Assembly: GCF_030127105.1 (NCBI RefSeq)
Contig: NZ_CP126161.1
Location: forward strand, 2,790,001 to 2,854,000
DNA length: 64,000 bases
DNA from: Haloarcula pelagica
GTDB taxonomy: Archaea > Halobacteriota > Halobacteria > Halobacteriales > Haloarculaceae
Direction of reading: 5' to 3'
The position numbers were made by a program, and so were the translations under genes. This document shows, one piece after another, positions 3,875-23,671 of the stretch; position 1 is the stretch's first letter; each line of letters opens with the position of its first letter. The notes beneath the pieces were generated by a model. That model ran no database searches. It saw nothing but the letters and a program-made list of their open reading frames with translations, and was not told where the DNA came from.

Positions 3875-4150
3875 TCAGTGCGCACCTCCCTTGCTGGTGC
3901 CGGGTGCATACGGTGGGGTTTTGGCTGGTACGTGCAGACAACCAGTGAATTTCACATTCCTGGTCCGGTAGGTGGGGTTGTCGGCTGAACGGGAGGTAAA
4001 CGCGGTCATCGGGTCGATTTCCCGGAGTTCTTGTCGGTAGGCTTCGCAACCTGCGACCCTTTCACTGACCTCAAAATATATTAATCTTGATAATTCTTCA
4101 ACCAACTGTGCACCGTCAGCCTCTTGTTTTGACGACGTTGAGTTTTCCAT
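3875..4150 (-). CDS. small first protein of RAMP operon (91 aa)
   Basis: I recognise no family. The ATG at 4150 gives 91 residues that begin polar, include an amphipathic helical stretch (AQLVEELSRLIYFEVSERV), and end in a proline- and glycine-rich tail. An in-frame ATG at 4249 would add 33 residues, but that extension runs through a cluster of inverted repeats and looks regulatory. The stop is two bases from the Cas7-like start, so the gene is co-transcribed. It could be a small accessory subunit or an anti-/regulator protein. Confidence 0.5.
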   Translation of the reverse strand: MENSTSSKQEADGAQLVEELSRLIYFEVSERVAGCEAYRQELREIDPMTAFTSRSADNPTYRTRNVKFTGCLHVPAKTPPYAPGTSKGGAH

Positions 4151-4173
4151 GGGTATCTCACGGCTCGTGGGAA

Positions 4174-4241
4174 ACCCAGTCTGGGTGTCCAAAGCACCCG
4201 GGCATTTCTGATTGACTGTTTGCCTCGTGAGACTGGGTCTC
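4174..4241. promoter_or_regulatory. cluster of inverted repeats upstream of RAMP operon
   Basis: Bases 4174-4186 form ACCCAG-T-CTGGGT, a perfect six-base dyad. Bases 4229-4241 form GAGAC-TGG-GTCTC. The nine bases ACCCAGTCT at 4174-4182 are repeated in inverted orientation as AGACTGGGT at 4230-4238. The sites sit between the RAMP operon and the divergent winged-helix gene, so an operator for that regulator is a reasonable guess. They would fall in coding sequence if the 4249 start were used. Confidence 0.35.
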
Positions 4242-4285
4242 CTCACCATCTCCTACACTGTGTAATGGTAAAAGCTTTTCCATCA

Positions 4286-4295
4286 CCTAAATAGG
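4286..4295 (-). promoter_or_regulatory. probable TATA box of RAMP operon
   Basis: On the minus strand the sequence reads CCTATTTAGG, a plausible haloarchaeal TATA element. A start site about 27 bases downstream would be near 4263, just ahead of the candidate starts at 4249 and 4150. Confidence 0.35.
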
Positions 4296-4350
4296 AGATG
4301 GATGACCACGTCCCGCCATCTACATAGGTAAGGTCCACAAAATCCAGGTT

Positions 4351-4584
4351 GTGCCGGGGAAGGACCGTGAGGAAGAATCTGGAAAGTATACAACCAGTTA
4401 CCCGGATTCCGAGTTTTTAGATGCGATCCGTCGCCACGACGGAATGGCTGGTACTTCAGAAATAGCCGAAGAAGTTGGCTGTACCCGACGTACAGCGTAT
4501 ACTCGGCTCCAGTCTCTTGAGGCAGACAACCGTGTTAGCAGTCGAAAAGTAGGTAATTCGTTAGTTTGGACAGTTGAGGCATAG
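4351..4584 (+). CDS. winged-helix DNA-binding regulator (77 aa)
   Basis: A GTG start gives a 77-residue protein that is essentially one winged helix. The recognition region is GTSEIAEEVGCTRRTAYTRLQSL, followed by a wing ending RKVGNSLVWTVEA. This is the common small haloarchaeal MarR/ArsR-like form. It diverges from the RAMP operon across about 200 bases holding TATA-like sequences and inverted repeats, so it is a likely local repressor. No sensor domain is visible. Confidence 0.75.
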   Translation: MPGKDREEESGKYTTSYPDSEFLDAIRRHDGMAGTSEIAEEVGCTRRTAYTRLQSLEADNRVSSRKVGNSLVWTVEA

Positions 4585-4758
4585 TACTTGAGACGTTGAA
4601 ATATATTATCTGGCCTCCGCTGAAACCCTCATAATTTGATACGCACGGAGTGCAACATACAGAGGATGTATCTCGCAAATAGGTCTGTACGTCTTCGGTC
4701 TCCTGAGTCGCTGTCTGTTTCTGCTGTGGTCGAGCCCGAGGAGTACTCTATCGTATCC

Positions 4759-5145
4759 TCAATAACTCCTGTCGCCGTCTAGATCCTGATCCGCTCGATT
4801 TTTGATTTGCTCCTTTTCGGAGTGTTCTTGAATTGTCTCTGCTGAATCGGAGTCTCCAGGTCCGTAGACCTCACGAACGTGGCTGAGATGCTCTCTTGCA
4901 ACATTTTGGGAAATATTAAATTTCTTAGCAATCTTTTTCGCAGTCAGGTCATTATAAGTGGAAAAAGATTCCACGATAGCCATTGAGACAGACATATACT
5001 CACCGCTATCGGCTCTCACCCGTTCGCTTCCGTCAGTGAACTCCGATTCGATAGGATACTTATCTTCTGGATGAGGTGTTTGTTCCTCGTCAGGGATTGT
5101 TTCCCAATCGTCCGGCATCCGTCCTACATCCTCAGAATTGTCCAT
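4759..5145 (-). CDS. hypothetical protein with HTH-like segment (128 aa)
   Basis: I recognise no family. The N-terminal 50 residues are acidic and disordered-looking. The central part (TAKKIAKKFNISQNVAREHL) has the spacing of a helix-turn-helix. The C-terminal 35 residues are again polar and charged. It may bind DNA. It stands alone between two plus-strand genes, in DNA with more A+T than the first 4 kb. A TATA-like AT-rich stretch lies upstream around 5160-5190. Confidence 0.5.
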   Translation of the reverse strand: MDNSEDVGRMPDDWETIPDEEQTPHPEDKYPIESEFTDGSERVRADSGEYMSVSMAIVESFSTYNDLTAKKIAKKFNISQNVAREHLSHVREVYGPGDSDSAETIQEHSEKEQIKNRADQDLDGDRSY

Positions 5146-5253
5146 GATCCCGATTGATAATGCGCCAATAAATATCTTTATTCTAAACCTAATTTCATTC
5201 GGTATTTTCCATATCGGACTGGCGTAGTTTGACCTTCCCGAATACGTATATGA

Positions 5254-5262
5254 TTATAAATA
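5254..5262 (+). promoter_or_regulatory. TATA box of the 121-aa hypothetical gene
   Basis: TTATAAATA lies about 40 bases before the ATG at 5301, placing transcription start near 5283-5290. It is a clear archaeal TATA element and supports the 5301 start over an in-frame start at 5229. Confidence 0.5.
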
Positions 5263-5300
5263 GGCAAAAATTTATGTGCCATAAAGAACAACTTTCGTGT

Positions 5301-5666
5301 ATGAGTAATAAACGTCGGAAAGATACAGCACACGATGTTGGCGATTCAATGCCCGGAACAGTTGGTGACAGTAAGGGGACAATCCATGACCGACAAGGGG
5401 GGCCATCGTTTGATCCAGAGGACGTCGAGGTACCAGGCGAAAATAACACGCAGTCTAATCAACAGCACGAACACACCGATAGCCAGAAACAGACGAATAA
5501 GGACACTTCAACAGGAGAAACTAACACTGAGGAGTCAACGAAACAAAGTAAGCGTATGAAGTACGCAAAAAAGTATGGTGAGTCATGGCCTGTTGAGCGC
5601 CAACGCAGGTTCCTTGAAGAGCATGATGTGTCTGCGAAGGATATGGGTTGGAGGCTTACTGAGTGA
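5301..5666 (+). CDS. hypothetical hydrophilic protein (121 aa)
   Basis: I recognise no family. The first 85 residues are low-complexity, rich in Thr, Gln, Asn, Ser and Asp, and probably disordered. A compact C-terminal segment (residues about 88-121, MKYAKKYGESWPVERQRRF then LEEHDVSAKDMGWRLTE) looks folded and helical. The ATG at 5301 is set by the TATA box at 5254-5262. The gene lies 99 bases before the SF1 helicase on the same strand and may be transcribed with it. Confidence 0.5.
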   Translation: MSNKRRKDTAHDVGDSMPGTVGDSKGTIHDRQGGPSFDPEDVEVPGENNTQSNQQHEHTDSQKQTNKDTSTGETNTEESTKQSKRMKYAKKYGESWPVERQRRFLEEHDVSAKDMGWRLTE

Positions 5667-5765
5667 GTGAGATTTTGTTAAGGAGAACATCCTTCGCCCG
5701 GTATTGGACTGTCTTTGGACGCTTTTTGAATAAACCGATTGTCGCTTACTCGCAGGATTGAAAGA

Positions 5766-7994
5766 ATGAGTCATAATCCTTTCCAAGACTGGTCGCAGGA
5801 TAACGCTCGGTTATTAAAAACGGATCTGACGCAGGAACGATATTCTCCAGTTTCAGTTGCTAAGGCATATGAAAATGCCGTTGAAACTATTCATAGTATA
5901 GATACTACATCAGACCAGTACGTAATTCCGCTGTTTGAGCCAGATGCTCCGAAACCCACTCAAGAGTATGTTTATTACAAGCCTGAGTCACAGAAGGTGA
6001 AAATCTACGATTCAGGGAATCACAGCATTGCTTGGCTTCCGCCAGGTGAAGTGTCGACTACGGAGCTTGGTCAGCGCCTCAAATGGTGGCTACCACCTGA
6101 TGAGCAAGATTTTGAAACACTCAGTGAGGAGCATGTGCCACCCGAATCAGTCAGTCCAGTTACCAATCTCAGCAAGTCTGAGTCGTCTGAGTTTTTTGAT
6201 GAGATGCTGGAACTGGTCCAACAGGAGCGGATTGCTGATAAGCAGGCTAATAGAGAACAGTATGAGGCTCTTGGGCTGAATAAAGCCATTCACCGAGGGG
6301 TGATGGCGGGCCCACTCATCCCACTTGGGACAGCACCATACGAAGGGGGTCGGGCCTTCAAATTTCAACTCACTTCTGAAGAGTCCGATGATGATACGGA
6401 TCCTAATCTCCGTGATGATGCTGAGATTTTCCCTGACAATGAGTATCTAGTGGGAGTCCGTGGGCATGAGAGTATCTCTCCTATTGAAATGGAAGCCGTC
6501 TATGTTGGGGATACAGACCTTTGGCTTCGGCCGCTGAACAAGTCAATCGCTAAGAATTCACCAAAGAGTAACGTACTAACGGATGACGAAGCAACGGTTT
6601 GGGTACATGATTTAGTTAATCCACTCCCGTACAATCGACGCCGCGACGCGATCCACAACGTGAAACGTAGCCGCAACAAACGACAACTTCTCACTGGCAA
6701 TCAGAATGCAGTGTTCTCGTCGGGACAGCATGCAATTCCAGATTCAGGTCTTGAACTTAATATTTCGCAGCAGAAGGCGCTTGTGTGGGCAGAGGCTGCT
6801 GAGGATTGCTTCTGCATCCATGGCCCGCCCGGTACCGGGAAAACGCGGACGCTTACTGCCTATATCCGTGATGCTGTCGCCCGTGAACAGCGCGTCCTTG
6901 TCACTGCACACTCAAATCAGGCTGTTGATAATTTGCTTGTTGGTGATAGTACTGTTGATGAGCCAGAAGAAGGGACGCTGCACGCTATAGCACAAGACGA
7001 CGAAACAGACATCACCATTTCTCGTTCCGGAACGAATTCTGAGGACCGAGTTGTTAACCGATACTATCAGGGCGTGCCATCAGCTAATGCAGATATTGTT
7101 GCGGCGACAACAAGTGGGGCTGCGCGCTTCTCGACTGACAGTTTTGATGTGGGAATCGTTGATGAAGCAACGCAAGCTAGCTGCGCCTCGACTGCTATCG
7201 CTTTTAACGTCTCTGAAAAGCTTGTTTTGGCGGGAGATCATAAACAACTGCCTCCATTTGCAGCCTCTGAGGACGCTCTTGGAGATGAGCAACGTCTTTC
7301 ATTATTTGAAGTATTGATAGATCGGTTCCACGAGGATCTATCAGTCATGCTCCGGACGCAGTACCGGATGAACGAATCGATCGCAGCCTATCCGAACAAC
7401 GCGTTCTACGATGGAAAAGTGAAGACTGCTGACCGGAACAGTGACTGGACTGTCGCTGACCTTTCCCCGCTTATGGGTATCCATATCAATGGGTCTGAAC
7501 AAAAAAGAACAGGGAGCCATTCGTACTACAACTCCGAAGAGGCTGAAGCCGCTGCAAAGCAAGTAAAGTTACTCACGAATAGTGGCCTTGCTCCTGGAGA
7601 TATCGGTGTTATAGCAGCATATAGCGGGCAGGTGGACGAAATAAAACAACAGGTGCGTCAACTCGGTATCGGTCACCCGGAAAAAGTAACCATCCAAACT
7701 ATTGACGGTTTCCAGGGAAGTGAACGGGAGGCCATCATTGTCTCACTAGTGAGAAGTAATGACGAGAATTCAAGCGGGTTTTTGACGATGCCAAATGAAG
7801 GACCGCGCCGGCTTAATGTTGCACTCACCCGTGGGCGCAAACGAGTTGTCATCATCGGAGACTGGAACACACTCGGGAAACTTGCTGATTACCGCGAGCC
7901 GGAAGAAAGTTGTGCTGACTTGTATGCCCAATTAGAGGAACGGATTCGAACCAGCGGAAAAATGCTCGATATAGCTGCCAAACCGTCTCAATAG
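5766..7994 (+). CDS. UPF1/Dna2-like superfamily 1 helicase (742 aa)
   Basis: All SF1B motor motifs are visible. Walker A is GPPGTGKT at about residues 353-360, Walker B is VDEATQA near 464-470, and motif III is GDHKQLPP near 490. Motif IV (LRTQYRMNESI), motif V (IDGFQGSEREAIIVSLVR) and motif VI (RRLNVALTRGRKR) follow. The N-terminal 340 residues are not recognised; they contain a middle beta-rich part and may contact nucleic acid. The family translocates 5'-3' on DNA or RNA. No nuclease domain is seen. The ATG at 5766 is preferred over an in-frame start at 5739. The stop lies five bases before the target duplication of a transposon that landed just behind the gene without breaking it. Confidence 0.85.
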   Translation: MSHNPFQDWSQDNARLLKTDLTQERYSPVSVAKAYENAVETIHSIDTTSDQYVIPLFEPDAPKPTQEYVYYKPESQKVKIYDSGNHSIAWLPPGEVSTTELGQRLKWWLPPDEQDFETLSEEHVPPESVSPVTNLSKSESSEFFDEMLELVQQERIADKQANREQYEALGLNKAIHRGVMAGPLIPLGTAPYEGGRAFKFQLTSEESDDDTDPNLRDDAEIFPDNEYLVGVRGHESISPIEMEAVYVGDTDLWLRPLNKSIAKNSPKSNVLTDDEATVWVHDLVNPLPYNRRRDAIHNVKRSRNKRQLLTGNQNAVFSSGQHAIPDSGLELNISQQKALVWAEAAEDCFCIHGPPGTGKTRTLTAYIRDAVAREQRVLVTAHSNQAVDNLLVGDSTVDEPEEGTLHAIAQDDETDITISRSGTNSEDRVVNRYYQGVPSANADIVAATTSGAARFSTDSFDVGIVDEATQASCASTAIAFNVSEKLVLAGDHKQLPPFAASEDALGDEQRLSLFEVLIDRFHEDLSVMLRTQYRMNESIAAYPNNAFYDGKVKTADRNSDWTVADLSPLMGIHINGSEQKRTGSHSYYNSEEAEAAAKQVKLLTNSGLAPGDIGVIAAYSGQVDEIKQQVRQLGIGHPEKVTIQTIDGFQGSEREAIIVSLVRSNDENSSGFLTMPNEGPRRLNVALTRGRKRVVIIGDWNTLGKLADYREPEESCADLYAQLEERIRTSGKMLDIAAKPSQ

Positions 7995-7998
7995 TCCG

Positions 7999-8006
7999 AT
8001 GTCAGC
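7999..8006 (+). repeat. target-site duplication, left copy
   Basis: ATGTCAGC sits immediately outside the left inverted repeat of the transposon and is repeated exactly at 8656-8663, directly outside the right one. Confidence 0.85.
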
Positions 8007-8655
8007 GGCTCTGTTGAAATCCTCAACAGCTGATACATTCTGAGCTCTCGTGTTCAGTACAGAGGAACCACTTATCACGATAGTCTCCACATCAAACATT
8101 ATGTCCCACACACGCCGCCAAGCTCTCCGTTCTGCTGGTATCTTAATTGGGATGAGTCTTGCTGGCTGTTCTGAACAGCAAGAATCAACAGCCCAACTTG
8201 GAGATCTCCAGTTTGTAAATAAAGACGAGTCGGTACACACTGTTGTTCTTTCAGTCCATCGAGAGAGCGACCCTGTGTTCATGGCTTCTTACGATATCCC
8301 AATGTCAAAATCGTCTACGACGACTATAACTGAGGGATGGCCGACAGATCCTGGTCAATACAGCGTCGTCGTAGCCCTCTCAGGACAGAGTAATCCGGAG
8401 TCGATAGAACTTGTTCCAGATGGTGGTTGCCAAAGCCTGATTGTTGAGATCAACAACCGATCGGTGTCATTTTTCGGGCCAGCACAAGCCACAGATAGCT
8501 GTACAACCGACGTGGCTACCTCCAGTACGAAATCAGTAGATGAATAGGATGAGATTTCTCTCGCGCTGATCGTCAACTGATGATACATATGCACTCTTCA
8601 GCGACCGGCTGTTTCAGACGAGAAAATGTCTGAAGAATAGGATTTCAACAGAGCC
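8007..8655. mobile_element. non-autonomous transposon carrying a lipoprotein gene (649 bp)
   Basis: The left end is GGCTCTGTTGAAATCCT (8007-8023). The right end is its exact reverse complement (8639-8655). The element is flanked by an eight-base direct repeat, ATGTCAGC. A GG-starting terminus and an 8-bp duplication fit the IS1595 family as I remember it. No transposase is encoded. Instead the element holds one gene, a Tat/lipobox lipoprotein (8101-8547). A subterminal dyad (TTTCAGAC at 8612-8619 with GTCTGAA at 8628-8634) lies near the right end. The element must move in trans. The perfect ends and duplication suggest recent insertion. Confidence 0.85.
8101..8547 (+). CDS. Tat-type lipoprotein, transposon passenger (148 aa)
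   Basis: The ATG at 8101 gives MSHTRRQALRSAG followed by a hydrophobic stretch and a lipobox LAGC with the lipid cysteine at residue 23. This pattern is that of haloarchaeal lipoproteins exported folded by the Tat route. The mature 125 residues are beta-rich, with a pattern (LQFVNKDESVHTVVLSV, later GQYSVVVALSG) of an immunoglobulin-like or cupredoxin-like sandwich. I recognise no catalytic site. It lies wholly between the inverted repeats of a 649-bp element, so it travels as cargo. Confidence 0.7.
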   Translation: MSHTRRQALRSAGILIGMSLAGCSEQQESTAQLGDLQFVNKDESVHTVVLSVHRESDPVFMASYDIPMSKSSTTTITEGWPTDPGQYSVVVALSGQSNPESIELVPDGGCQSLIVEINNRSVSFFGPAQATDSCTTDVATSSTKSVDE

Positions 8656-8663
8656 ATGTCAGC
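8656..8663 (+). repeat. target-site duplication, right copy
   Basis: This is an exact copy of ATGTCAGC at 7999-8006, abutting the right inverted repeat of the transposon. Confidence 0.85.
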
Positions 8664-8822
8664 GTATCATTGAAATATTCACAGTAAATTTACTGCGGTG
8701 CAACTTGAGGTAGAAAGTGTTGGAATAAGGATAGCTACAGTAAGTAGTGCAAGATATAGAGCATCTATCTACCGAGTTTGGGCCCACGTAGATTTTTGAA
8801 TCCGAGTGATCAAATTGTCGAT

Positions 8823-9095
8823 ATGGCTGATGATCCAACGATTCCGATGGGAGACGTACGGCAAGACCCGGATAGCGACCGGCAAGGTGCTTTCAAGCGA
8901 GGTTGGACGGCTGCTGTCAAGGATCTCGATGACGGAGAATCGTCGAAGTATTCCGAGGGGCCACCACCAGAGGAACTGACGTGGGACAATCTTGGGTATC
9001 GCCTCGGGAGCATATTCGGTGAGACAGATGACGACCTACGTCAGAGACTCTTTGATTGGTGTAAAGACAAGCAAAGACGAGAGCGAAATGATTGA
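8823..9095 (+). CDS. small conserved-looking haloarchaeal protein (90 aa)
   Basis: The ATG at 8823 gives 90 residues. An acidic N-terminal half is followed by a compact C-terminal domain, LTWDNLGYRLGSIFGE then DDDLRQRLFDWCKDKQ. I have the impression of seeing this type of short domain in many haloarchaeal proteins, but I cannot attach a function. It faces the AAA ATPase gene convergently, with an inverted repeat between them. Confidence 0.5.
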   Translation: MADDPTIPMGDVRQDPDSDRQGAFKRGWTAAVKDLDDGESSKYSEGPPPEELTWDNLGYRLGSIFGETDDDLRQRLFDWCKDKQRRERND

Positions 9096-9133
9096 TTTGT
9101 TTCAATAATAGCTCGTAGCTCACGCTTAGATTT

Positions 9134-9160
9134 TGCTGAATGTGCGCCCTCTATTCAGCA
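9134..9160. terminator. inverted repeat between convergent genes
   Basis: TGCTGAAT (9134-9141) and ATTCAGCA (9153-9160) form perfect eight-base arms with an 11-base spacer, between the ends of the 90-aa gene and the AAA ATPase gene. It may act as a bidirectional terminator. It could also be a leftover insertion-sequence end. Confidence 0.35.
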
Positions 9161-9245
9161 CGGCTCCGAGAAAATATCACTGATTGAGAATCGCAAATGT
9201 ACCATTATCTACTGTACTATCTCTGGTTGGCTAAATCACTACATC

Positions 9246-10412
9246 TCACATTGATTCGATTGTCTCGACAACAGTGTCACGCCCAATAGTATTGGTAATC
9301 GTCTCTGAATTTGTGGCAGTATCGAGGACCCGACTGCAGATACTCAGTACCTGACGAATATTCCCCTGTGAACGCTGAAGAACAACGTTGAGACCCTGTT
9401 CTGTGAATGGTTCAATTCCTGCTTCCCCGTTGGTTCTAGCCGTATCGAGATAGTCCTCAACGAGGTTGTATACCTTCTCTTCAGTGAGCGGTCGAAGTGC
9501 GACCTCCTGTCCAATTCTCTCTGAGAATGCATGATATTCACTCATCACATCTTGCCAGACTTCTGGTGCGCAGCCAAAGAGGATACACAAGCCACGGCTA
9601 TTCTGGTCCATCAAATGCCTGATACTGTTCAGCGTTGCCTGCTCATCTTTCGGCGTCAGTTGGGCAATTCGCTCGAATTCATCAATGAAGGTAAATATCC
9701 CAGTATAGTCGAGTTCGAGCAGCATGTTCTTCAGCGCCGTAAACGCCCGAACCGCACTGGTATCATCGTCGATTGCACTATGGATCTCCATCTCTTTTCG
9801 TTGTTCGTACCTGAGGCCCTCAGCGGTCAACCATTGCCAAGCATAGAGGTTCGTATCTTCGTAGACGAGGTGGACTATTGCTCGGGCAAAATCGGCGAAC
9901 TTAGTCACATCGCTCAGTCGCTGTATCGTTTCTGGGACGATATCCGATAACAATACTTCACCATCATCGATGAGTCGTTCCATCGAACTGGCGCTGGTTG
10001 GATTTGCGTCCGTCTGTTCTCGTGCTACTGAAGCGAGGAACTCGTAGCTCAATGCCTGCATCCGGTCGAATCCAATGTCGTAAACGAATTCGTGATAGAT
10101 ATCGAGGAAACCATCCCCCGGTTGCGCAACATATCCTACGAGAACATCGTCGCGGTCTCTGACGAGTGATCTCGTGTATTTGAGTGTGTGTGACTTGCCG
10201 TTGCCGTACTTACCGGTGACGACAAGATGTTTCGATTTGCCAGTGCCGAGAACTGACGAAACGGTGTTACTGATGCGTTCGGTTACTTGCTCCTGCCCGC
10301 AGTAGACTGCTGGCTCATCATCTGGTACAGGACTATACGGGAAGGGGTTCTCCGTGAGTCCGAACTCCGAGTAATCGCGCTGTTCGTCCGTGATGGTGAA
10401 ATTATCGCTCAT
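9246..10412 (-). CDS. AAA+ ATPase co-transcribed with dpdA-like gene (388 aa)
   Basis: The N-terminus carries an ORC/Cdc6-style entry (FGLTENPFPYSPVPDDEPAVYCG), then Walker A GKYGNGKS at 67-74, Walker B FIDEFERI at about 242-249, and a sensor-1-like strand LCILFGCAPEV near 275-285. The C-terminal part after 330 looks like a lid plus helical domain. Such ATPases load or remodel protein on DNA. Its start overlaps the winged-helix gene by four bases (ATGA), and that gene overlaps dpdA the same way. The three proteins are therefore made together. A role beside DpdA, for instance in place of the ParB-like DpdB that I do not see here, is inference. BREX BrxD-like ATPases are an alternative family. 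Confidence 0.7.
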   Translation of the reverse strand: MSDNFTITDEQRDYSEFGLTENPFPYSPVPDDEPAVYCGQEQVTERISNTVSSVLGTGKSKHLVVTGKYGNGKSHTLKYTRSLVRDRDDVLVGYVAQPGDGFLDIYHEFVYDIGFDRMQALSYEFLASVAREQTDANPTSASSMERLIDDGEVLLSDIVPETIQRLSDVTKFADFARAIVHLVYEDTNLYAWQWLTAEGLRYEQRKEMEIHSAIDDDTSAVRAFTALKNMLLELDYTGIFTFIDEFERIAQLTPKDEQATLNSIRHLMDQNSRGLCILFGCAPEVWQDVMSEYHAFSERIGQEVALRPLTEEKVYNLVEDYLDTARTNGEAGIEPFTEQGLNVVLQRSQGNIRQVLSICSRVLDTATNSETITNTIGRDTVVETIESM

Positions 10413-11302
10413 GGTTGAGTGTAGTTCAGATTCCGGTCGTGGACCGTGAGGTAATAGTATCGTTTGCCGTACTGTTCGATTCCTCGCATCACCCTGTCGG
10501 TCGACTGTGAAGTCGAAACCAAACTGTCGTCAGCGGCTAACTCGATCTCTTTAATCCCGTAGCTTGCATCCTTGGCTCCGGTATCCATCGGCGCACCAGA
10601 CAACTCGAGTTTCCCCACGTTCTCCGCCGCTAAGTGTGAGAGCGCCGCATCGAACGACTCACGCGTCAGTTCAAGAGATGCACAAAGTGATTCTCGCACC
10701 TCCGGGATAGAGAGGTACCGCTGCCTGAGACCGACACCAGCAGTTTCCTCGAGGTCGTCATATATCTCCAGCAGGGCATAGTGGAAGTTTGCTGGCGGTT
10801 CCTCACTTCGTGGTTGATAGTACTCGCCGGTAAACGCGTTCCGCTGAACTGTCCCGAGTCGTTCGCCCCAGTCACCGACTACTTCGATTCCAGTCTGATT
10901 GTATGCATACGGCGTGAATTCCGCTTGCTCTTCTAATTGATCAAGGACAGTATCTAACTGCGCAGGACCTTCGTCTGTGACGACCTCCAGAAAGCTACGG
11001 TAGTGTGGACTTCTGGTCGCAAGGATGGAACTGACTTGCGACCAATCCTCTGCGCGCACACTACTTACGAACGATTCTCCAACTGGTGTCGTTCTGTATT
11101 GCTGGTTGTCTTCTTCGTGTTTGCTATCTTCTTCGATGAGATCGATGCGTAGTGCCTCAAGTAGCGTTTCACGGGCTCTTCGATGACTAACGTCGAGTTC
11201 CTCTTCGATATCTTCGGTCGACATCGGTTCCTGACAGAGGAATGCCGTCTCGACCAACCGTGCCATCGTAACTGGCCGAACTGTCGGACGTTCGTCGCTC
11301 AT
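10409..11302 (-). CDS. winged-helix protein of dpdA operon (297 aa)
   Basis: Residues about 10-60 form a winged helix (ARLVETAFLCQEPMSTEDIEEE region). The rest is mixed helix and strand with no motif I know. The last 60 residues are beta-rich and end RYYYLTVHDRNLNY. It overlaps dpdA upstream and the AAA+ ATPase downstream by ATGA, the arrangement expected of subunits of one complex. It could be a DNA-sequence reader for the modification machinery rather than a free transcription factor. Confidence 0.5.
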   Translation of the reverse strand: MSDERPTVRPVTMARLVETAFLCQEPMSTEDIEEELDVSHRRARETLLEALRIDLIEEDSKHEEDNQQYRTTPVGESFVSSVRAEDWSQVSSILATRSPHYRSFLEVVTDEGPAQLDTVLDQLEEQAEFTPYAYNQTGIEVVGDWGERLGTVQRNAFTGEYYQPRSEEPPANFHYALLEIYDDLEETAGVGLRQRYLSIPEVRESLCASLELTRESFDAALSHLAAENVGKLELSGAPMDTGAKDASYGIKEIELAADDSLVSTSQSTDRVMRGIEQYGKRYYYLTVHDRNLNYTQP

Positions 11303-12333
11303 GTGAGCCTCCGGACCTGCTGCTTTGCCATTCGGAACGCTCGTTTCGTGACTTCGTTACCCTGGAAACGAAGATCGAGGTACGATTCTAGGTCCTCACC
11401 GGCAGCGACCATGTACCTGAATCTTCGCAACTCAAGAGCAAGCGCCCAGAGGTTGTGTTGAACAAGGAGGTCACGATCGCCTCGGACTTCCTCGAAATCA
11501 CGGGTACTGCAAACAGGACAAGCACAAGGAAGCAGTGAGAGATTCTCGACGTTTTTCATCGGTTCTCCCCCGAACCCAGGAATGAGGTAGTTCCTGTTCC
11601 CCGCACTACGGATGAAGGCTGACGAATCGAAACTATCAACTCCCATATACAGAAGTAGTGGTTGGTACGTAACCCCACCTAATCCATAGACATGGAGGTG
11701 CTTCTCTGTGGCACGACGTGCCGATAGTATAATTTTTGTTACCTTTTCGTAGTCAGTTCTGATTGGGACCAAACTCCCCACTGCATATCCATCGAAGGAA
11801 CCCTCGCGTTCCAGATATCGAATTGTATTTCGGACAGTCTCCGGGTCATACCCGTGGACACTCCCCAATAAGATCTCCTCGCCGTCGTGTCGATCACTCG
11901 CTTCAAGTGCAAGATCGATACTCCGACTGATTCGGCGCTGATTTTTCGCTTGTCGGTTATCCCGGGAGAGGGGAACGTCAACGGTCCCAAATATATCAGC
12001 ATCCATCCGGCGCTGTGTCTCCAGGGTCTTTTCTGGGGTGGTGTCGACCTCGCTCGTCTGAAAATCGAACCCCCCGCTATCCGCGAAGACGATTGTATCC
12101 GAGGTGACCCCCATCTCGTCACGAAGTGAACTCCCTTCGACGAGGCGGTTCCACTGTGGGTCCCTGTTTCGGATTGCACGCGCGTTGACCATCGCTGTCG
12201 ACAGATCTGGTATACTGTCAGTGTATTCTGGCGTGTTATCGCTCGACCGTTTCCCGATATTGCTTACCGGAAAGAGCACTGGAGTCCGTAACTCCCCGTG
12301 TGGTGTATCGAGTGTACGTTGTCTGTACAACAT
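11299..12333 (-). CDS. dpdA: DpdA-like 7-deazaguanine transglycosylase (344 aa)
   Basis: This is a TIM-barrel transglycosylase of the TGT superfamily. The ELRTPVLFPVSNIG opening at about 14-27 matches the TGT pattern. The active-site loop FADSGGFDF places the first Asp at 85. GLGG is at 217-220. GVDSFDSS at 231-238 holds the expected nucleophile Asp. The zinc site is C270, C272, C275 and probably H293. Canonical TGTs exchange guanine in tRNA; the DpdA branch inserts preQ0 into DNA. The DNA role is inferred from neighbours: a complete preQ0 operon and restriction-type helicases. The ATG at 12333 is chosen over one at 12405 because a TATA box at 12363-12371 places transcription start within a few bases of it. 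Confidence 0.75.
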   Translation of the reverse strand: MLYRQRTLDTPHGELRTPVLFPVSNIGKRSSDNTPEYTDSIPDLSTAMVNARAIRNRDPQWNRLVEGSSLRDEMGVTSDTIVFADSGGFDFQTSEVDTTPEKTLETQRRMDADIFGTVDVPLSRDNRQAKNQRRISRSIDLALEASDRHDGEEILLGSVHGYDPETVRNTIRYLEREGSFDGYAVGSLVPIRTDYEKVTKIILSARRATEKHLHVYGLGGVTYQPLLLYMGVDSFDSSAFIRSAGNRNYLIPGFGGEPMKNVENLSLLPCACPVCSTRDFEEVRGDRDLLVQHNLWALALELRRFRYMVAAGEDLESYLDLRFQGNEVTKRAFRMAKQQVRRLT

Positions 12334-12362
12334 ATGCGACGCGCTGTGGTAAGCTGGGCTGG

Positions 12363-12371
12363 GGTATAAAG
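12363..12371 (-). promoter_or_regulatory. TATA box of dpdA operon
   Basis: The minus strand reads CTTTATACC. It lies about 30-38 bases from the ATG at 12333, giving an almost leaderless transcript. It abuts the 18-base palindrome. Confidence 0.55.
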
Positions 12372-12388
12372 CTTTGCTCGAGCAAAGC
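12371..12388. promoter_or_regulatory. perfect 18-bp palindrome operator
   Basis: GCTTTGCTCGAGCAAAGC is a perfect palindrome. It covers the position just upstream of the dpdA TATA box, where TFB would contact the BRE, and lies between dpdA and the divergent winged-helix gene at 12441. A dimeric winged-helix repressor bound here would block the dpdA promoter. The divergent gene is the obvious candidate (inference). Confidence 0.6.
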
Positions 12389-12440
12389 AATCTTCGGTAA
12401 ACCATAGCGACTTTAGATTCTGTCAGTAAATGCTTGGTAG

Positions 12441-12722
12441 ATGGCGTCAGACGATGTGCGCAGACTATTCGGTCGAAAGCGCACCATCGAAGTCCTACAG
12501 CTCTTGTCTGACCAGGGCAGATTGAACTATTCAGAGATCGAGACTAGCATCGAATCATCGAGCGATACAATCAGCCAGTCGCTTGCGCTGTTGGGTGAAT
12601 ATAGTCTAGTCGAGCGTCACGAGCGAAGTTCCCGGGATGTTCAGTACAAAATCACTCAGAAAGGTACTGACCTGCTGGAGGCCCTAGAGAGAATCGAATC
12701 GGTATTGGCCCAAGATGCCTGA
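12441..12722 (+). CDS. winged-helix regulator divergent from dpdA (93 aa)
   Basis: This is a single winged-helix domain of the HxlR/ArsR type. The segment RTIEVLQLLSDQGRLNYSEI is followed by a recognition helix around SSDTISQSLALLGEYSLV and a wing ending QYKITQKGTDLLEAL. CTTTAGATT near 12411-12419 lies about 26 bases before the ATG, so the gene is leaderless. It diverges from the dpdA operon across a perfect palindrome and ends six bases before the converging fused-transglycosylase gene, so it is physically wedged into the modification locus and probably controls it. Confidence 0.75.
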   Translation: MASDDVRRLFGRKRTIEVLQLLSDQGRLNYSEIETSIESSSDTISQSLALLGEYSLVERHERSSRDVQYKITQKGTDLLEALERIESVLAQDA

Positions 12723-12728
12723 GTCCTC

Positions 12729-15644
12729 TCAGAACTTTTCGATAGCGGCTTGGCTTGGTTCTTCTTCGATATATCGACAGAGGAGGCTCACAGTTTCTGG
12801 GTCCACCTCACTGGTATCGGGCAAGTTCTTGGCGAAGTTCTCTAAATAGAGCCCTTTGAGACCGATCACGATCGTCTCGTGGCGCTTGGCATCTTCTGTT
12901 CGCGCAGGGACGGAGACGATATTCTCGTACTGTTGATCAACCAGATCTCGGTTGAAAACGACACCAATGCGATCCGAGCGTACCGTTTGGACGGTCTCGT
13001 CGATGTCGATACTGGTGTAGTAATCTTTGCCCAGTGTAAAGAAGACGATATCGTAGTCAGTTTGATTTAGTACTCTCCACAGATCCTTCTTGATTCCCAG
13101 TCGCTCCGACCGTTCTCTGATTTGACTGACGTTCATACCGCTGAACGTGACTTCATACGGTGGCAACTCTTCCTCTTCACCCACCAAGCCGAACCCAGCA
13201 CTGATAAAGAACCGCTCCACGTTGTGGCCGTCGTCCCTGAGCCTCCTCACAGCATTGCTGATCGACTCCTGCTGGCGGCCAGTGTACAGGTCCTTGGCTT
13301 TGATACCGAGGGAATCATCGTGATTGAGTAGTTCTTCCTTCGACGACCCATCTATCTCGTCAACGTCAAAGATGCGTTCTCCGTCTGGAACGTACTTCGA
13401 ACCCGAGCATTGATCGATAACTAAGATGTCGAGATCCGAACCAGTATCGAAGGCCGGTTTATGTGGTGCAAAGTCTTCACCTGCTGAATACTCTTCGCCA
13501 AGGTCAGAGAGGACTGTTTCCCGAAGGCGATCCGGTTGCTCAAAGACGGATACTTTACAGTCAGATCCATCGGCAGCCCGGTTTAGTATCGATTCCGTGT
13601 TCTGATCGATACCATAGACGTAGACCTGATCGTACCGACTGAGCGCTTCAGTGAACCGATTCTCTGTGCCTGTTGGGGCAAACGAAACCGTTCGTGGAGT
13701 CTCGTCCCACCACTCATGAACGCCGTTCGCATCGAATGCCCCGACTTCCGCGACAGGGAGGTCGTGTGTCTGTTCCCAGAACCCGCTCCGTTCCTCTCTG
13801 AGGTAGTCTTCGACAGTGCGATAATTGCTGAAGGAAGCCGATCCTTTCGTGAGGATCAGGATTTTTGGTAGGGACTCCGAGAACTCCTCGTAGAAGCGAT
13901 CCGTATTGTGGAACCCACGTCGGCGGTTGCGGTCGTTTCCACGGAAAATGCATACCTCGACACCGAGGTCAATACAGATCGGACAATCACAATGTTCCCA
14001 CGGGCGGTCTGCAAGCGTCTGCTGGTATGCCTCGAGCAAATCCTCGTTTCCGATCCAGATAGCGTAATCCTGAACGACGAACCAGAGACGCTGGAATGCA
14101 CTCATTCCTGATGTCTTTGCTTCTTCACGTTCAAGGATGGACGCCATCCGAGGGAAACGCTCGAACGATTCCGAAGCCGTCTGCAGTATATTCTGATACT
14201 TCTCGAACGGAAGCGGATCGGTTTCGCTGTCAGAGCGCAGGAATTTGACGATCTGGGTCCGGAGGTCGTCACTGAAGTATGCTTGTAGCTTCCGAGCGTA
14301 TTCGAAATCATCACGCAATACGGATTCGATGTCCCGGAGTCGTGAAGCATTGAATTTCTCGTCATGACGGTGATTCCGGAGGTACCGCTTTGTCTCTGTG
14401 AGCGTCTTGCTGGCCTTCTCTTCCCACTCTCGGAGAGCCTCCGCAATCGATTCGTTGTCTGCGTAAGCTCGGAGCGCGATGAGGGTTTCTTGACCTCGAA
14501 GAGCAGTTTCGACAGCATCCGCTATCTCGGCACCGTGCTTGGGATACTGGACACGAATAGCATCATATCGATCGTCGCTGTCTAGCCGGTAGTTCTGTCC
14601 ACCAGTCCACGCAGACCGTAGCATGCTTGCGCTGTCGAAACTGGACATACCGGACCGTCCAATCGTCTCGAACGCATCTGACTTGGCGAATCCGAAGACG
14701 TGTGTGTCGACCCGGGTCCGATTGGTCCGCTCGTAGTCTTTAACCGATTTACCGACTTCCTTGACGATCTTTCTAACGTCGTGAACCGGACTCCCTGCTA
14801 CGCCACCAATTCCTATGTAATCGTAGCCGATATCGAGTACCTCTTCGACCGCCCGGACATACGATTCGGCTGTCCATCCCTGGACCGCAACCATCAACCG
14901 GAACGGATAGTCTCCCCTCTGATACTGCTTCCACATTTCGCGGGCGTTCTGGAGCGTCAGCTCGTATCTGAATCGCTTGTCGTCCTCTCGATAAACCGCT
15001 CTCGGATCGTCATCAAGACGATTCAGCACCTTGTCGACATCACCCTCAAAATCAGACTGGGTGAGCGGCCGGACACCATCGCTGCGATCGATGCAGATCG
15101 ACGAGTCGTGCTTTTCGACATACTCGGGCCATTCTTCGGGCCACTCGTCGATCATCAGATCGACTGCATCTGTGATCTTCGAAGGGATATCTGATTTATT
15201 AAAATCGCCGCCAAGCGCCCGTTCATCAAGGTAGAGTCGCCCCCTCTCCTTTCCTGAGCCCAAGACAAGGTGGTCGATCGTCACTCCGACCGAGACGTCC
15301 AGCGTCTCGTAGAACTCCAACATATCCTCGTTGCCATACGGAGGGAACGGGTACGATTTGTACCCCCATGCGCCACAGTCGCTGATCGTAGGAAGCCACC
15401 CAGGAACGGAAAGGATCGGGTCGTCGTAGACCCCATGCTTCGAGAGTCGCTCTGCCTTGTTGGCTGTCGATTCGACCTGCTCGCGTGAGATCAAGACCCC
15501 ATCAATCGGCGTCGACTCTTTGGCGAAGATATCCCAGATATAGTCCAGATTCCGCTCTTGGCGGTGGAGGTTCGATAACTCGTCGTGTTCGAAATCATAG
15601 CCCGCATCCACAGCGTCGTCCCACTCGGGAACATAGAACCTCAC
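12729..15644 (-). CDS. second DpdA-like transglycosylase fused to YaaA/DUF6884-like domain (971 aa)
   Basis: Residues 1-600 follow the TGT barrel: SDCGAWGY at 88-95 in place of SDSGGFQ, YIGIGGVAGSP at 276-286, GMSSFDSAS at 332-340 with the nucleophile Asp, and a zinc site HCDCPIC at 551-557 with a later His at 579. A helical insert fills about 360-540. From about 737 a separate domain begins: VIDQCSGSK (743-750), AKDLYTG (783-789), FISAGFGLV (813-821), PPYEVTF (828-834). This is the pattern of YaaA/DUF6884 proteins. As I recall, DpdC, which converts preQ0 in DNA to its amide, belongs to DUF328 (YaaA). The chain may therefore join insertion and conversion steps. The start is GTG at 15644 with a TATA near 15684-15690. 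It converges on the winged-helix gene. Confidence 0.7.
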   Translation of the reverse strand: MRFYVPEWDDAVDAGYDFEHDELSNLHRQERNLDYIWDIFAKESTPIDGVLISREQVESTANKAERLSKHGVYDDPILSVPGWLPTISDCGAWGYKSYPFPPYGNEDMLEFYETLDVSVGVTIDHLVLGSGKERGRLYLDERALGGDFNKSDIPSKITDAVDLMIDEWPEEWPEYVEKHDSSICIDRSDGVRPLTQSDFEGDVDKVLNRLDDDPRAVYREDDKRFRYELTLQNAREMWKQYQRGDYPFRLMVAVQGWTAESYVRAVEEVLDIGYDYIGIGGVAGSPVHDVRKIVKEVGKSVKDYERTNRTRVDTHVFGFAKSDAFETIGRSGMSSFDSASMLRSAWTGGQNYRLDSDDRYDAIRVQYPKHGAEIADAVETALRGQETLIALRAYADNESIAEALREWEEKASKTLTETKRYLRNHRHDEKFNASRLRDIESVLRDDFEYARKLQAYFSDDLRTQIVKFLRSDSETDPLPFEKYQNILQTASESFERFPRMASILEREEAKTSGMSAFQRLWFVVQDYAIWIGNEDLLEAYQQTLADRPWEHCDCPICIDLGVEVCIFRGNDRNRRRGFHNTDRFYEEFSESLPKILILTKGSASFSNYRTVEDYLREERSGFWEQTHDLPVAEVGAFDANGVHEWWDETPRTVSFAPTGTENRFTEALSRYDQVYVYGIDQNTESILNRAADGSDCKVSVFEQPDRLRETVLSDLGEEYSAGEDFAPHKPAFDTGSDLDILVIDQCSGSKYVPDGERIFDVDEIDGSSKEELLNHDDSLGIKAKDLYTGRQQESISNAVRRLRDDGHNVERFFISAGFGLVGEEEELPPYEVTFSGMNVSQIRERSERLGIKKDLWRVLNQTDYDIVFFTLGKDYYTSIDIDETVQTVRSDRIGVVFNRDLVDQQYENIVSVPARTEDAKRHETIVIGLKGLYLENFAKNLPDTSEVDPETVSLLCRYIEEEPSQAAIEKF

Positions 15645-15879
15645 AGTTAGATAGTCACCTGTACCTGTGTATCGCTCTCTCGCTTATAGAAGTGACTCAT
15701 CACCAGAGGCCCGTCTGACCATCTCAATTTGGCCCTTCGACTTTTGAATGTTACAGATCTCTTGAATGAAGCCGTCTATTTAGCTTGGATTCAGACAGTT
15801 ATCCAGAACCGGCATATTTACTAGACTCAGTAGCGGTTGTTTCGGCTTATTAATACGGGAATTCAAATAATCTCTCTGA

Positions 15880-17136
15880 TTAGAATTTACTCAGATTAGT
15901 CATGTCAACATTATGCCCGTCTGTATCAAGCGATGCTGTTTCGACCGAACTAACAACTTCACCATAGAAGTAATCGCTAATTTCGGTAATCTGAACATAT
16001 GCAATACCTGTGTCTGACACACCCTTTTCAAGAACGACAGGTGCCTCGATATCATCACGGACCAGATTTGCCGTATCCCGTCGTTTTGAGACCTTAGCTT
16101 CGTATCTTTCACCAATCTCTATCGAGGGTGATTCATATCTTTTTACTCTTCCTGTAAAGTTGCCACCTGAGGCAGTTACGATAGAAACAGTTGCTTGTCC
16201 CGAAAGAATCGCTTCGTTTTCGAGTTCAATGAGACACCTTTGATTACCTGCCTCGAGCGTTGCCTCCGACTGCTTCCGACTGGTTTCTAAAGTGACTTTG
16301 TCCCCGACACTAGGTGCAGAAACTTCATCATCAGCAATCTGGCCACGGATATTCATTGGCGCTAGATTTGAGAGGGAAACTTCTGCAGGGCCAGTTGCCG
16401 GTGCGGGTTCGTTGAGTTCGATGGACACACCGAATTCTGAGACCCTAACTTCGGTGCTACCCTGTTTCAGATGCCCGATAACAGTGTCTCCCTCAGATGG
16501 TATCTGTTGTGTATCACACAATTCTCCTTGTAATGGTGAATCAAGTTTAGTGATTTCGACAGGAACTTCTACAGATACAGGAACCCAGCGGTCCAGCTTT
16601 ATTTTGCAACCAGAGCCGGTCCTTGCTGATCTAGAATCAGCGATTGTCTGACCATTTATTTCTGTCCCTGTAGTGATACCTTCTTCTCTAATTGCGATGG
16701 GGAGTGCGTAGGCCGTTTCATCACGGGTCTTCATGATTTTAACAGTACCACTGAATTTCGGGCCAACCCGGTACACATAAACTGCTTCAAGATTGCTAGA
16801 GTTCGCTGCTGGTGCTCGTGCCACTCCATTTCCGACCATCCCATCGGTTTGTATGTCAATTTCATCCTGGGGTTGGTCATGACGCTTGTATGCGGCCCGC
16901 TCTTGACGGAGTTCGGCATGGCCATCACTGACATTAATTACTGTCGCGTAGATTCCCATACCTGGAGTCATAGAACTGGAACCCGCTGCTTCAGTTACCT
17001 CAAGAGTGTTGATAGCGGCCCATGGGGGGGCTTGTGCCTTGACTTCATGAATATCCACAGACAGTATTTTTGTGCGGATAAAGTCGCCAGCTTTTATGGG
17101 TAAATTAATTTCACCGGGTTCGATAGGAGAGACCAT
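15880..17136 (-). CDS. multi-TRAM/OB-like repeat protein (418 aa)
   Basis: The whole protein is beta-rich and made of repeating units of roughly 55-65 residues with the rhythm of TRAM/OB domains, such as a GDFIRTKI opening, APSVGDKVTLETSRKQSEAT, and repeated acidic connectors. TRAM and OB domains bind RNA or single-stranded DNA. They occur in RNA base-modifying enzymes, where they hold the substrate. I see no catalytic motif. It diverges from queD and follows the fused transglycosylase on the same strand. It may be a nucleic-acid-binding cofactor for the modification step. The domain call is by pattern only. Confidence 0.45.
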   Translation of the reverse strand: MVSPIEPGEINLPIKAGDFIRTKILSVDIHEVKAQAPPWAAINTLEVTEAAGSSSMTPGMGIYATVINVSDGHAELRQERAAYKRHDQPQDEIDIQTDGMVGNGVARAPAANSSNLEAVYVYRVGPKFSGTVKIMKTRDETAYALPIAIREEGITTGTEINGQTIADSRSARTGSGCKIKLDRWVPVSVEVPVEITKLDSPLQGELCDTQQIPSEGDTVIGHLKQGSTEVRVSEFGVSIELNEPAPATGPAEVSLSNLAPMNIRGQIADDEVSAPSVGDKVTLETSRKQSEATLEAGNQRCLIELENEAILSGQATVSIVTASGGNFTGRVKRYESPSIEIGERYEAKVSKRRDTANLVRDDIEAPVVLEKGVSDTGIAYVQITEISDYFYGEVVSSVETASLDTDGHNVDMTNLSKF

Positions 17137-17299
17137 ATTACTGTTTTAATCTGACTATCCAAAAACCTAATACAATATTCGCGCTGTCGAGATTCACAAA
17201 ATTTGATAGAGAACGGTCACTTACCATGGAGACTGTATGTTGAATGTGATTCCCCACCGAGTAGTGGAGACCTCAACTGAGGCCCATATTTCAGTTCCA

Positions 17300-17330
17300 C
17301 TCCGGGGCATGTCTATAAATGCTCCCGGAG
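17300..17330 (+). promoter_or_regulatory. inverted repeat enclosing the queD TATA box
   Basis: CTCCGGG (17300-17306) and CCCGGAG (17324-17330) are perfect arms, extended inward by GCAT and ATGC with one unpaired base. The element CTATAAAT at 17313-17320 lies exactly in the middle, 23-30 bases before the queD ATG. A protein bound here would occlude TBP. The site differs from the dpdA palindrome. Confidence 0.5.
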
Positions 17331-17342
17331 TATTCTCCCAGT

Positions 17343-17804
17343 ATGGTTGAGGGAATATCGAAGGATCAGTCTGACCGGACACGGCTCTCTGAAGCAGGGG
17401 AGAGAGAATTGCTAATTGGTGAGGACCAACCAATTCGGATTAGCTCTGGCCATCGCATACAGCACCACGATGGGAAGTGTAGTCGCCCACATGGACACAA
17501 TTACGAGATTTCTGTCAGTGTTACCGGCGAGCTAACCAAAGAAGGGTGGGTCGTCGACAAAGGTGAGATCACTTCGATAATTTCTGAGTGGGACCATCGC
17601 TTCATACTCGAGCGTGGCGATCCACTCATTGAAGCTTTCGAACAAAGCGGTGATAGTGGCGCTCTCGTCGTTATCGATCATCCACCGACGGCAGAGGTAA
17701 TGGCGGTGCTGCTGGAAGAACGCATGATGGAGGAATTTCCAGACACCGTTTCAGATGTCTCCGTCTCAGTTAGAGAAACAGGCGAGCTGTGTGCAGCACC
17801 GTAG
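17343..17804 (+). CDS. queD: 6-carboxy-tetrahydropterin synthase QueD (153 aa)
   Basis: This enzyme converts dihydroneopterin triphosphate to 6-carboxytetrahydropterin, the second step from GTP to preQ0. The zinc histidines are H37, H50 and H52 within the SGHRIQHHDG and RPHGHNYE segments. The catalytic Cys is C46. The Asp-His pair is D84-H85, and the C-terminal RETGE supplies E145. Length fits the family. The TATA box makes the ATG at 17343 essentially leaderless. It is the first gene of a four-gene operon with intergenic gaps of six, two and one bases. Confidence 0.92.
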   Translation: MVEGISKDQSDRTRLSEAGERELLIGEDQPIRISSGHRIQHHDGKCSRPHGHNYEISVSVTGELTKEGWVVDKGEITSIISEWDHRFILERGDPLIEAFEQSGDSGALVVIDHPPTAEVMAVLLEERMMEEFPDTVSDVSVSVRETGELCAAP

Positions 17805-17810
17805 CTATCG

Positions 17811-18578
17811 ATGCCTGTGAATGCTGACGCGGAAATTGAGGATGCAGAAGCCGAGGGCGACCTCCCGATCAACGAACTCTTCTATTCGTTACAGGGGGAG
17901 GGGAAGCTTTCGGGTGTTCCATCGGTCTTCGTCCGAACCAGCGGCTGTAATCTTCGCTGCTGGTTCTGTGATTCGTATCACACGTCCTGGGAACCCACAC
18001 ACGCATGGATGGACATAGAGGAAATGATCTCAGAGGTCGAGTCTCACCAGGAATGCGAACACGTCGTCCTCACCGGCGGCGAACCAATGATTCACTCTGC
18101 GGTGACAGACCTACTGGATAAACTCTCAGCAAGGGGGTACCACACGACAGTCGAAACGAACGGTACCATCCATCGTGATGCTCCGGTTGATTTGGCTAGC
18201 ATTAGCCCAAAACTTCAGTCGAGTACGCCCACAGCAGAGAAAGATCCGAAGGGTGAGGGAGAATGGGCGGACAAACACGATGAGCGTCGACTGGACCTCG
18301 AGTCACTGTCCGCACTCGTAGAGGACTACGCGTTCCAACTGAAATTTGTCGTCACCAGCACCGACGATATGGTGGAGATCGAATCTCTCCTTGAACGGTT
18401 GCGGAATGTCACCTCTGAGTCCATCGCCGGTGATGATATCCTACTCATGCCCGAAGGGGCGACGCGGGACCGGTTGGAAGAGACGCGCGAACTCACAGCC
18501 GAATTGGCGATGGAATACGGGTACAGATACACGCCGAGGCTGCACGTGGATCTGTGGAACGACGCACCAGGAACCTGA
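17811..18578 (+). CDS. queE: 7-carboxy-7-deazaguanine synthase QueE (255 aa)
   Basis: This is the radical-SAM enzyme that rearranges 6-carboxytetrahydropterin to 7-carboxy-7-deazaguanine. The iron-sulfur cluster motif CxxxCxxC is C46, C50, C53 in SGCNLRCWFCDS. TGGEP at 88-92 binds SAM. The N-terminal NELFYSLQGEG is typical of QueE. It begins six bases after queD and ends two bases before folE. Confidence 0.92.
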   Translation: MPVNADAEIEDAEAEGDLPINELFYSLQGEGKLSGVPSVFVRTSGCNLRCWFCDSYHTSWEPTHAWMDIEEMISEVESHQECEHVVLTGGEPMIHSAVTDLLDKLSARGYHTTVETNGTIHRDAPVDLASISPKLQSSTPTAEKDPKGEGEWADKHDERRLDLESLSALVEDYAFQLKFVVTSTDDMVEIESLLERLRNVTSESIAGDDILLMPEGATRDRLEETRELTAELAMEYGYRYTPRLHVDLWNDAPGT

Positions 18579-18580
18579 AC

Positions 18581-19189
18581 ATGACCGACGATATTCAAAC
18601 TGACACGGTAGAGAGCGTCGACGATATCGACGGCGAGACGCACGCAATCGACTGGTCGAAAGCTCAAGAGGGCGTTCGATTGTTGCTGGAGGCCGTCGGC
18701 GAAGAACCGGATTCAGCGAAACTCCAGGAGACCTGGCAGCGCCGGGTTCCAAGTGCCTTCGAGACGCTGACTCAGGGAACACGGATCGAGGCGAAACCTG
18801 AGATGCGAACGTTCGAGGCGTCTGGTGAGAGTTTCGTGGTTAAAGAAGATATCCCAGTCTACAGCCTCTGCGAGCACCATTTGCTACCGTTTTTCGGTAC
18901 TGCAACGGTCGCATATCGTCCAGACAGTGAGGTCGTAGGGTTATCGAAACTCGCGCGTTACGTGCGGTGGCAGTCACGCCAACTCACGATGCAGGAACAA
19001 CTCACACAGGATATCGCTCATGGACTCGCCGACGAGATTGGAGCCTCTGCGGTGATGGTCGAGATATCGGCGACACATCTCTGTGAAGCGATGCGCGGTG
19101 TCGAGACGAAGACCGAGACATCGAGTAGAGCGGTTGTCGGCGAACCGACTGAGCACGAACGACGGCGATTCAACGAGGCAACCAGATAA
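18581..19189 (+). CDS. folE: GTP cyclohydrolase I (FolE type IA, 202 aa)
   Basis: This enzyme opens GTP to dihydroneopterin triphosphate, the entry step to preQ0. Zinc ligands C97 and H100 in SLCEHHLLPFFG and C168 in HLCEAMRG are all present. The GLSKLARYVRWQSRQLTMQEQL block is classic type IA. Many archaea use the unrelated type IB enzyme, so a type IA gene inside a defence island suggests acquisition from bacteria along with the pathway. The ATG at 18581 is two bases after the queE stop, and an acidic N-terminal tail of about 25 residues precedes the fold. Confidence 0.92.
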   Translation: MTDDIQTDTVESVDDIDGETHAIDWSKAQEGVRLLLEAVGEEPDSAKLQETWQRRVPSAFETLTQGTRIEAKPEMRTFEASGESFVVKEDIPVYSLCEHHLLPFFGTATVAYRPDSEVVGLSKLARYVRWQSRQLTMQEQLTQDIAHGLADEIGASAVMVEISATHLCEAMRGVETKTETSSRAVVGEPTEHERRRFNEATR

Positions 19190-19190
19190 T

Positions 19191-19886: not shown

Positions 19887-20078
19887 ATAAAATCTCCTCA
19901 CGCCGAAAATAGAGAAACTCTCCCAAGTGAATACAATTACGGCTCGATTGGGATCCTCAGTTGATGACCATTAGTTTGGACCGTGGTGAATAGAGATCGC
20001 GTACCTTTTACTGAAGATTTTTGAAGCCTGCCCAATTGATTTAATAGATCCGGGAAAGGCGTCGAAAACACCCACACC

Positions 20079-20108
20079 AGAACTAAATAGAACTAAACTA
20101 GAACTGGG
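20079..20108 (+). repeat. three 10-bp tandem repeats at a small-gene promoter
   Basis: AGAACTAAAT, AGAACTAAAC and the weaker TAGAACTGGG follow one another directly. The A+T core CTAAATAG (20083-20090) is about 25 bases before the ATG at 20112 and may serve as TATA box, so the repeats could be a regulator-binding array. Confidence 0.4.
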
Positions 20109-20111
20109 CCT

Positions 20112-20318: not shown

Positions 20319-20461
20319 CATCTGCAAATCTCTTTAATTTCTTCACCCGACCGATCCCTTGCATCTTATGCCTTTCCATCAGGTTTTAACGATTTCAGCA
20401 GAGTCTGTATTATCCAATCTTATATGAAGCTAGTTATCGGTGCTATACGTCTAATCGCCGG

Positions 20462-23599: not shown

Positions 23600-23671
23600 G
23601 CCAATTAAATACATTTTACTGTCACTTAACACTGGTTGCAGCGTGGCTTTGACTGGAATTGAAGACCACTT

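Follow-up and report, generated by a model that had tools for sequence, protein, structure and literature searches.

Which kind of element carries the small lipoprotein gene at positions 7999 to 8663 of the window, what would move it, and why does it hold a lipoprotein gene in the place of a transposase? The window is the whole stretch of DNA analyzed, namely, 64,000 nucleotides of the Haloarcula pelagica genome, which consists of 4.46 Mb in four contigs.

The 649-bp element and its lipoprotein

An initial annotation had described a 649-bp transposon with perfect 17-bp ends and an exact 8-bp target duplication, and this description was confirmed base by base. Read directly from the sequence, the direct repeat ATGTCAGC is found at 7999-8006 and again at 8656-8663, with 8/8 identical bases. 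Between these copies lie the inverted ends, GGCTCTGTTGAAATCCT at 8007-8023 (plus strand) and its reverse complement at 8639-8655 (minus strand), which match at 17/17 positions; the symmetry stops there, base 18 being different. The length between the two target duplications is 649 bp. Next to the left end is a subterminal region of the form CTCA..GTGATA..TTCTG..TCAGTACAG (8024-8066, plus strand), a type common to other cassettes and short noncoding elements. The right subterminal region, ATTCTTCAGACATTTTCTCGTCTGAAACAGCCGG.. (8596-8638, minus strand), is common to the IS5 elements and other cassettes.

The element contains one long open reading frame (ORF), at 8050-8547, which has 165 codons from a GTG and 148 from the ATG at 8101. 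The gene was assigned to 8101-8547 on the plus strand. No remnant of an IS5-type transposase was detected between the ends, and the complete Tat lipoprotein gene of the initial annotation indeed stands in place of a transposase. A candidate TATA box, CTTATC, was read from the sequence at 8071-8076 (plus strand), ~27 nucleotides upstream of the start codon, and would possibly suit a leaderless transcript of the gene. The 148-residue product opens with MSHTRRQALRSAGILIGMSLAGC, which includes a twin-arginine signal and a LAGC lipobox with Cys23. The arginines at positions 5 and 6 and the pair G22-C23 are invariant in 19/19 aligned sequences, all of which had been chosen as lipoproteins. The protein hence has the twin arginine and the lipobox cysteine of haloarchaeal Tat lipoproteins, and its lipidation is predicted. 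No Pfam or NCBIfam family matched it. The AlphaFold model (six sequences) is weak, with a mean pLDDT of 61, and shows eight strands and no helix; judging from this model, the mature domain is probably all-beta. No solved structure resembled the model at an E value of ≤0.001, and a profile search of solved structures with the lipoprotein gave nothing below an E value of 0.038.

Distant relatives of the lipoprotein (~30% identity) were detected in 168 of 392 genomes at an E value of ≤0.001. Profile (HMM) matches to fetched loci that were weaker than ~1e-8 were not counted as homology, since the signal peptide by itself may account for them. Among the 29 relative loci fetched besides the window, four have an end-like site (≤2 mismatches) beside the gene, indicating that most members of this lipoprotein family are located outside such elements. 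Two of these four loci (L069 and L078) possess both ends and a 7/8 duplication. Three plasmid records carry distant relatives, and the end pattern matched 7 viral stretches.

The element disrupts no obvious gene; its left duplication begins 5 bp past an SF1 helicase gene (5739-7994). The right flank (8659-8769, ~110 bp) is a repeat found in several genomes of the genus, and it is opened by the last bases, CAGC, of the right duplication. At three other loci (L223, L227, and L228), the repeat begins with or near CAGCG beside unrelated sequence. Since the repeat starts at the end of the right duplication, the right copy is continuous with the native sequence, and it is the left copy that was added. 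A comparison with empty sites in related strains, as initially suggested, was made with window positions 7200-9500 but did not provide a strict empty site: none of the 32 genomes of the genus has both flanks, and only the right-hand repeat recurs in any of them. The region around the element (5739-23632) is possibly a DNA-modification/defense island, encoding the SF1 helicase, a BrxC/D-like ATPase, a TGT/DpdA-like protein, and a UvrD-PDDEXK protein; the best PADLOC match of the helicase is MkoA.

Elements with the same ends and their transposase

The exact 17-mer was found in 164 of 293 genomes of the order, and relatives of the 60-bp right end were present in 168 of 392 genomes. Of the right-end matches listed, 30 came with their loci and 80 more were fetched; part of the census of elements was chosen by similarity to the right end of the window element. 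In all collected loci, we identified 104 distinct elements with paired ends and 7 or 8 matching bases in the target site duplication (TSD), of which 85 had 8/8. When the TSD was read 5, 8, 11, or 16 bases further out, 0, 2, 0, and 0 elements were obtained, respectively. In the H. pelagica genome, the 16-bp end occurs at 16 sites with ≤1 mismatch and at 44 sites with ≤3 mismatches, compared to 6 sites for the reversed pattern. Both comparisons argue against the view that the repeat and the inverted ends flank an ordinary chromosomal gene by chance, a view for which we found no supporting point and whose probability is practically nil.

To regard the window element as an isolated oddity was thus too narrow, since such elements are common in Halobacteria. 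The 104 elements comprise short noncoding elements, cassettes, and insertion sequence (IS) copies, some of which have passengers. The majority of the cassettes carry cargo other than a lipoprotein, including acetyltransferases (L174 and L231, the latter labeled from its sequence), an AsnC-type regulator (L128), a PIN protein (L186), an SBF-type transporter (L096), an FMN_dh-type protein (L110), an RDD protein (L354), and a PQQ-repeat protein (L343); a PBP-like lipoprotein was found in L307. The possibility that cargo is always transcribed from a promoter in the left end was rejected as a general rule, as cargo occurs in both orientations; the end-type patterns of this orientation test were too strict, and the left end of the window element itself was scored as untyped.

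Several observations were made along with the census. (i) Three Methanoregula records (L145, L194, and L195) contain elements of 256 to 258 bp with the same end and 7 to 8 of 8 duplication bases, and the ends therefore reach beyond Halobacteria. (ii) An 8-kb stretch of Halorubrum saccharovorum (L101) has five pattern-called Tat lipoprotein genes and several such ends and is possibly a cluster of decayed cassettes. (iii) In L186 (2295-3846, 8/8 duplication), a small gene is located just upstream of the PIN-domain gene, and the two possibly form a toxin-antitoxin pair.

Three full-length transposase genes were found between these ends in the H. pelagica genome, at C1:1181934-1182752, C3:212618-213433, and C1:1095136-1095954. 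Their identities to the reference transposase of L243 are 96%, 94%, and 68%, respectively; L243 is a 1,263-bp IS5 element from the same genus, in which both ends are present and the TSD is 8/8. Transposases of 273 and 284 amino acids match the IS5 family (NCBIfam NF033579), and the L243 transposase shares 83% identity with an annotated member of the ISHla2 family; its plasmid relatives are annotated as IS5. A transposase for matching ends is thus present in the same genome, as the initial annotation had anticipated, but it is not of the IS1595 type proposed there. The IS1595 family also makes 8-bp duplications, and a domain search of this genome gave three IS1595 matches (C3:6327, 194858, and 221600). 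None of them adjoins any of the listed ends, whereas the transposases between the GGCTCTGTTGAAATCC ends are IS5, and it is therefore highly improbable that these are the ends of an IS1595-type element; this partner was rejected. We take ISH1 to be a member of the IS5 family. For this element, the available text of a published study gives 8-bp target duplications (PMC7193027). The window element shares the ends and the 8-bp duplication with IS5 elements of the ISHla2/ISH1 kind but lacks their DDE transposase.

The search of the H. pelagica genome for further copies of the ends, which had likewise been suggested, led to three more lipoprotein cassettes. These are (i) an 838-bp unit with the TSD AACAGACC (8/8) and a plastocyanin-like Tat lipoprotein, (ii) a 765-bp unit with a 7/8 TSD and a 139-residue Tat lipoprotein, and (iii) a 592-bp unit with perfect ends, a poor TSD (5/8), and another Tat lipoprotein. 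With the window element included, this genome thus has four lipoprotein cassettes, each with a different Tat lipoprotein. There is no second copy of the exact 649-bp cassette in the genome, so that recent movement of the latter is at most a possibility. The same ends also frame two units with a TSD of 8/8 (2,592 and 3,823 bp) that contain additional genes besides an IS5 transposase, a unit of 9,883 bp (8/8) without an IS5 transposase of these ends, and a 1,236-bp IS without a TSD (2/8). The 9.9-kb stretch between these ends with an 8/8 duplication (L042 2788-12670, also L041) is on contig C4, and ~2.5 kb of it recurs near 4105-6653 of the contig.

As to known classes, mobile insertion cassettes (MICs) are known mostly from bacteria. 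A MIC is an IS-related object that has no transposase of its own and can be activated by a related IS, as defined in the available text of the ISsaga paper (PMC3129680). The window element has IS-type inverted ends, a target duplication, and a coding passenger without a transposase, and complete ISs with the same ends exist. It is like the MICs of that text in its relation to an IS and in lacking a transposase, and it differs from them in being part of a set found in haloarchaea, the cargo of which is diverse and enriched in Tat lipoproteins. Transporter ISs, which the same text defines by passengers beside the transposase (PMC3129680), also have counterparts with these ends, two of which (L118 and L344) are supported by a TSD and carry a lipoprotein along with the transposase; the window element lacks the transposase. 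Miniature inverted-repeat transposable elements (MITEs) are short and noncoding and have IS ends; short noncoding elements that combine these end types do exist, but the complete gene of 148 codons sets the window element apart from them. Another parallel is HqIRS32, an ISH2-type MITE of Haloquadratum and Halobacterium, which is ~520 bp long, is free of transposase, and has an ORF for a short protein (PMC3119063). In the available text of that source, it is the sole one of five MITE families with a likely protein ORF, and lipoprotein cargo is not mentioned (PMC3119063).

Over-representation of Tat lipoproteins in the cargo

Cargo was compared in cassettes that were 450 bp or longer and had an ORF of 90 or more amino acids. 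Nine of the 38 such cassettes, those of H. pelagica included, carry a Tat lipoprotein. With this genome left out, the figure is 6 of 34 cassettes, compared to 17 of 761 background genes (Fisher p = 2.3e-4). The count omits L069 and L078, which had been fetched via lipoprotein homology, L143 (a nested alternative of 2,299 bp), L176 and L332 (weak ends), nonhaloarchaeal loci, and units that were shorter than 450 bp or lacked an ORF of 90 amino acids. Among the passenger-carrying IS copies, a lipoprotein was found in 2 of 19, or in 2 of 17 with H. pelagica left out (p = 0.06).

The first gene at each end was then considered in 247 loci, nonhaloarchaeal loci and the H. pelagica genome being left out and 28 genes that were inside one end and outside another being dropped. 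A lipoprotein was encoded by 21 of 142 first genes inside the ends and by 6 of 183 outside (p = 1.9e-4); in the version that includes the window, the numbers are 22 of 143 and 6 of 185. Subsamples gave 8/73 versus 3/102 (p = 0.034) and 13/72 versus 3/85 (p = 0.0028). Transposases were the first gene in 52 of 247 cases inside and in 5 of 225 outside. Genes were called by a greedy longest-ORF rule and lipoproteins by a pattern rather than a trained predictor, so that the absolute rates are rough, while both sides were treated alike. Tat lipoproteins are over-represented as cargo outside the H. pelagica genome.

Origin of the cassettes and role of their cargo

The 649-bp unit is very probably a mobile insertion cassette of an ISHla2-like IS of the IS5 family. 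The 17-bp ends and ~50 bp next to each are the predicted binding region of the IS5 transposase, which intact copies in the same genome may supply in trans, and the unit would insert with an 8-bp target duplication. Such a cassette may arise through loss of the transposase from an IS with a passenger or through capture of a gene between two ends. The RDD cargo was found both with a transposase (L098, 1,476 bp) and without one (L354, 666 bp), and the two are 81.6% identical over 602 bp, which fits the first route; the opposite direction is possible. The cassettes would then spread between haloarchaea, and lipoprotein genes are retained as cargo beyond expectation. In this context, an alignment of 594 columns between the 592-bp unit of H. 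pelagica and a 591-bp unit of Haloferax larsenii (L131) shows 85.7% identity; the latter has a TSD of 8/8, and the flanks of the two units differ. Counting against the cassette are the lack of a strict empty site and of a second copy, along with the poor or missing duplications of the 592-bp and 1,236-bp units.

Two other views accept the cassette and concern its cargo. The first is neutral hitchhiking, in which any short gene could sit between the ends and the lipoprotein excess would only reflect the many small, exchangeable lipoprotein genes that haloarchaea have on plasmids. The diversity of the passengers and the many elements on plasmid records speak for it, as does the dN/dS ratio of 0.73, near neutrality, between the 592-bp lipoprotein and its Haloferax relative. 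However, the first-gene comparison draws on the same replicons and still finds far fewer lipoproteins just outside the ends, and three other cargo pairs have ratios of 0.09 to 0.24, so that cargo as such is constrained. We regard neutral hitchhiking as plausible, although we lean against it. Two lipoprotein pairs of greater divergence were uninformative, their synonymous sites being at or near saturation.

According to the second view, the lipoprotein aids the element or its host, for example, through a cell surface change that excludes superinfection or the entry of vesicles or viruses, and selection spreads it. This would agree with the recurrence of different lipoproteins in independent cassettes, four of them in one genome, with the presence of one window-type family between such ends in several genomes, and with the high dN/dS of the single lipoprotein pair, which is only a hint of fast change. 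On the other hand, no relative was found in phage records, peptide patterns gave no match in viral contigs, and one cargo is plastocyanin-like, which suggests several functions. Selection for such a benefit appears rather unlikely.

Returning to the mobile insertion cassette that we favor, MICs are an already known kind of element, and the recurrent lipoprotein cargo is the new part; a literature search, largely without subscription papers, found no paper on lipoprotein-carrying cassettes or recurrent lipoprotein cargo in haloarchaea. As a quite doubtful extension, IS5-type cassettes might form a shared haloarchaeal delivery system that repeatedly spreads and diversifies surface lipoproteins, in which case the cell surface would be partly transposon borne; competition with viruses, vesicles, or plasmids might be the setting. 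Whereas passenger-only elements are usually regarded as rare curiosities, here the ends of one IS family frame many single genes across Halobacteria. The excess of surface lipoproteins in these cassettes represents a concrete route for small surface proteins between archaeal genera, and the cassettes may account for some of the isolated small lipoprotein genes in haloarchaeal genomes.
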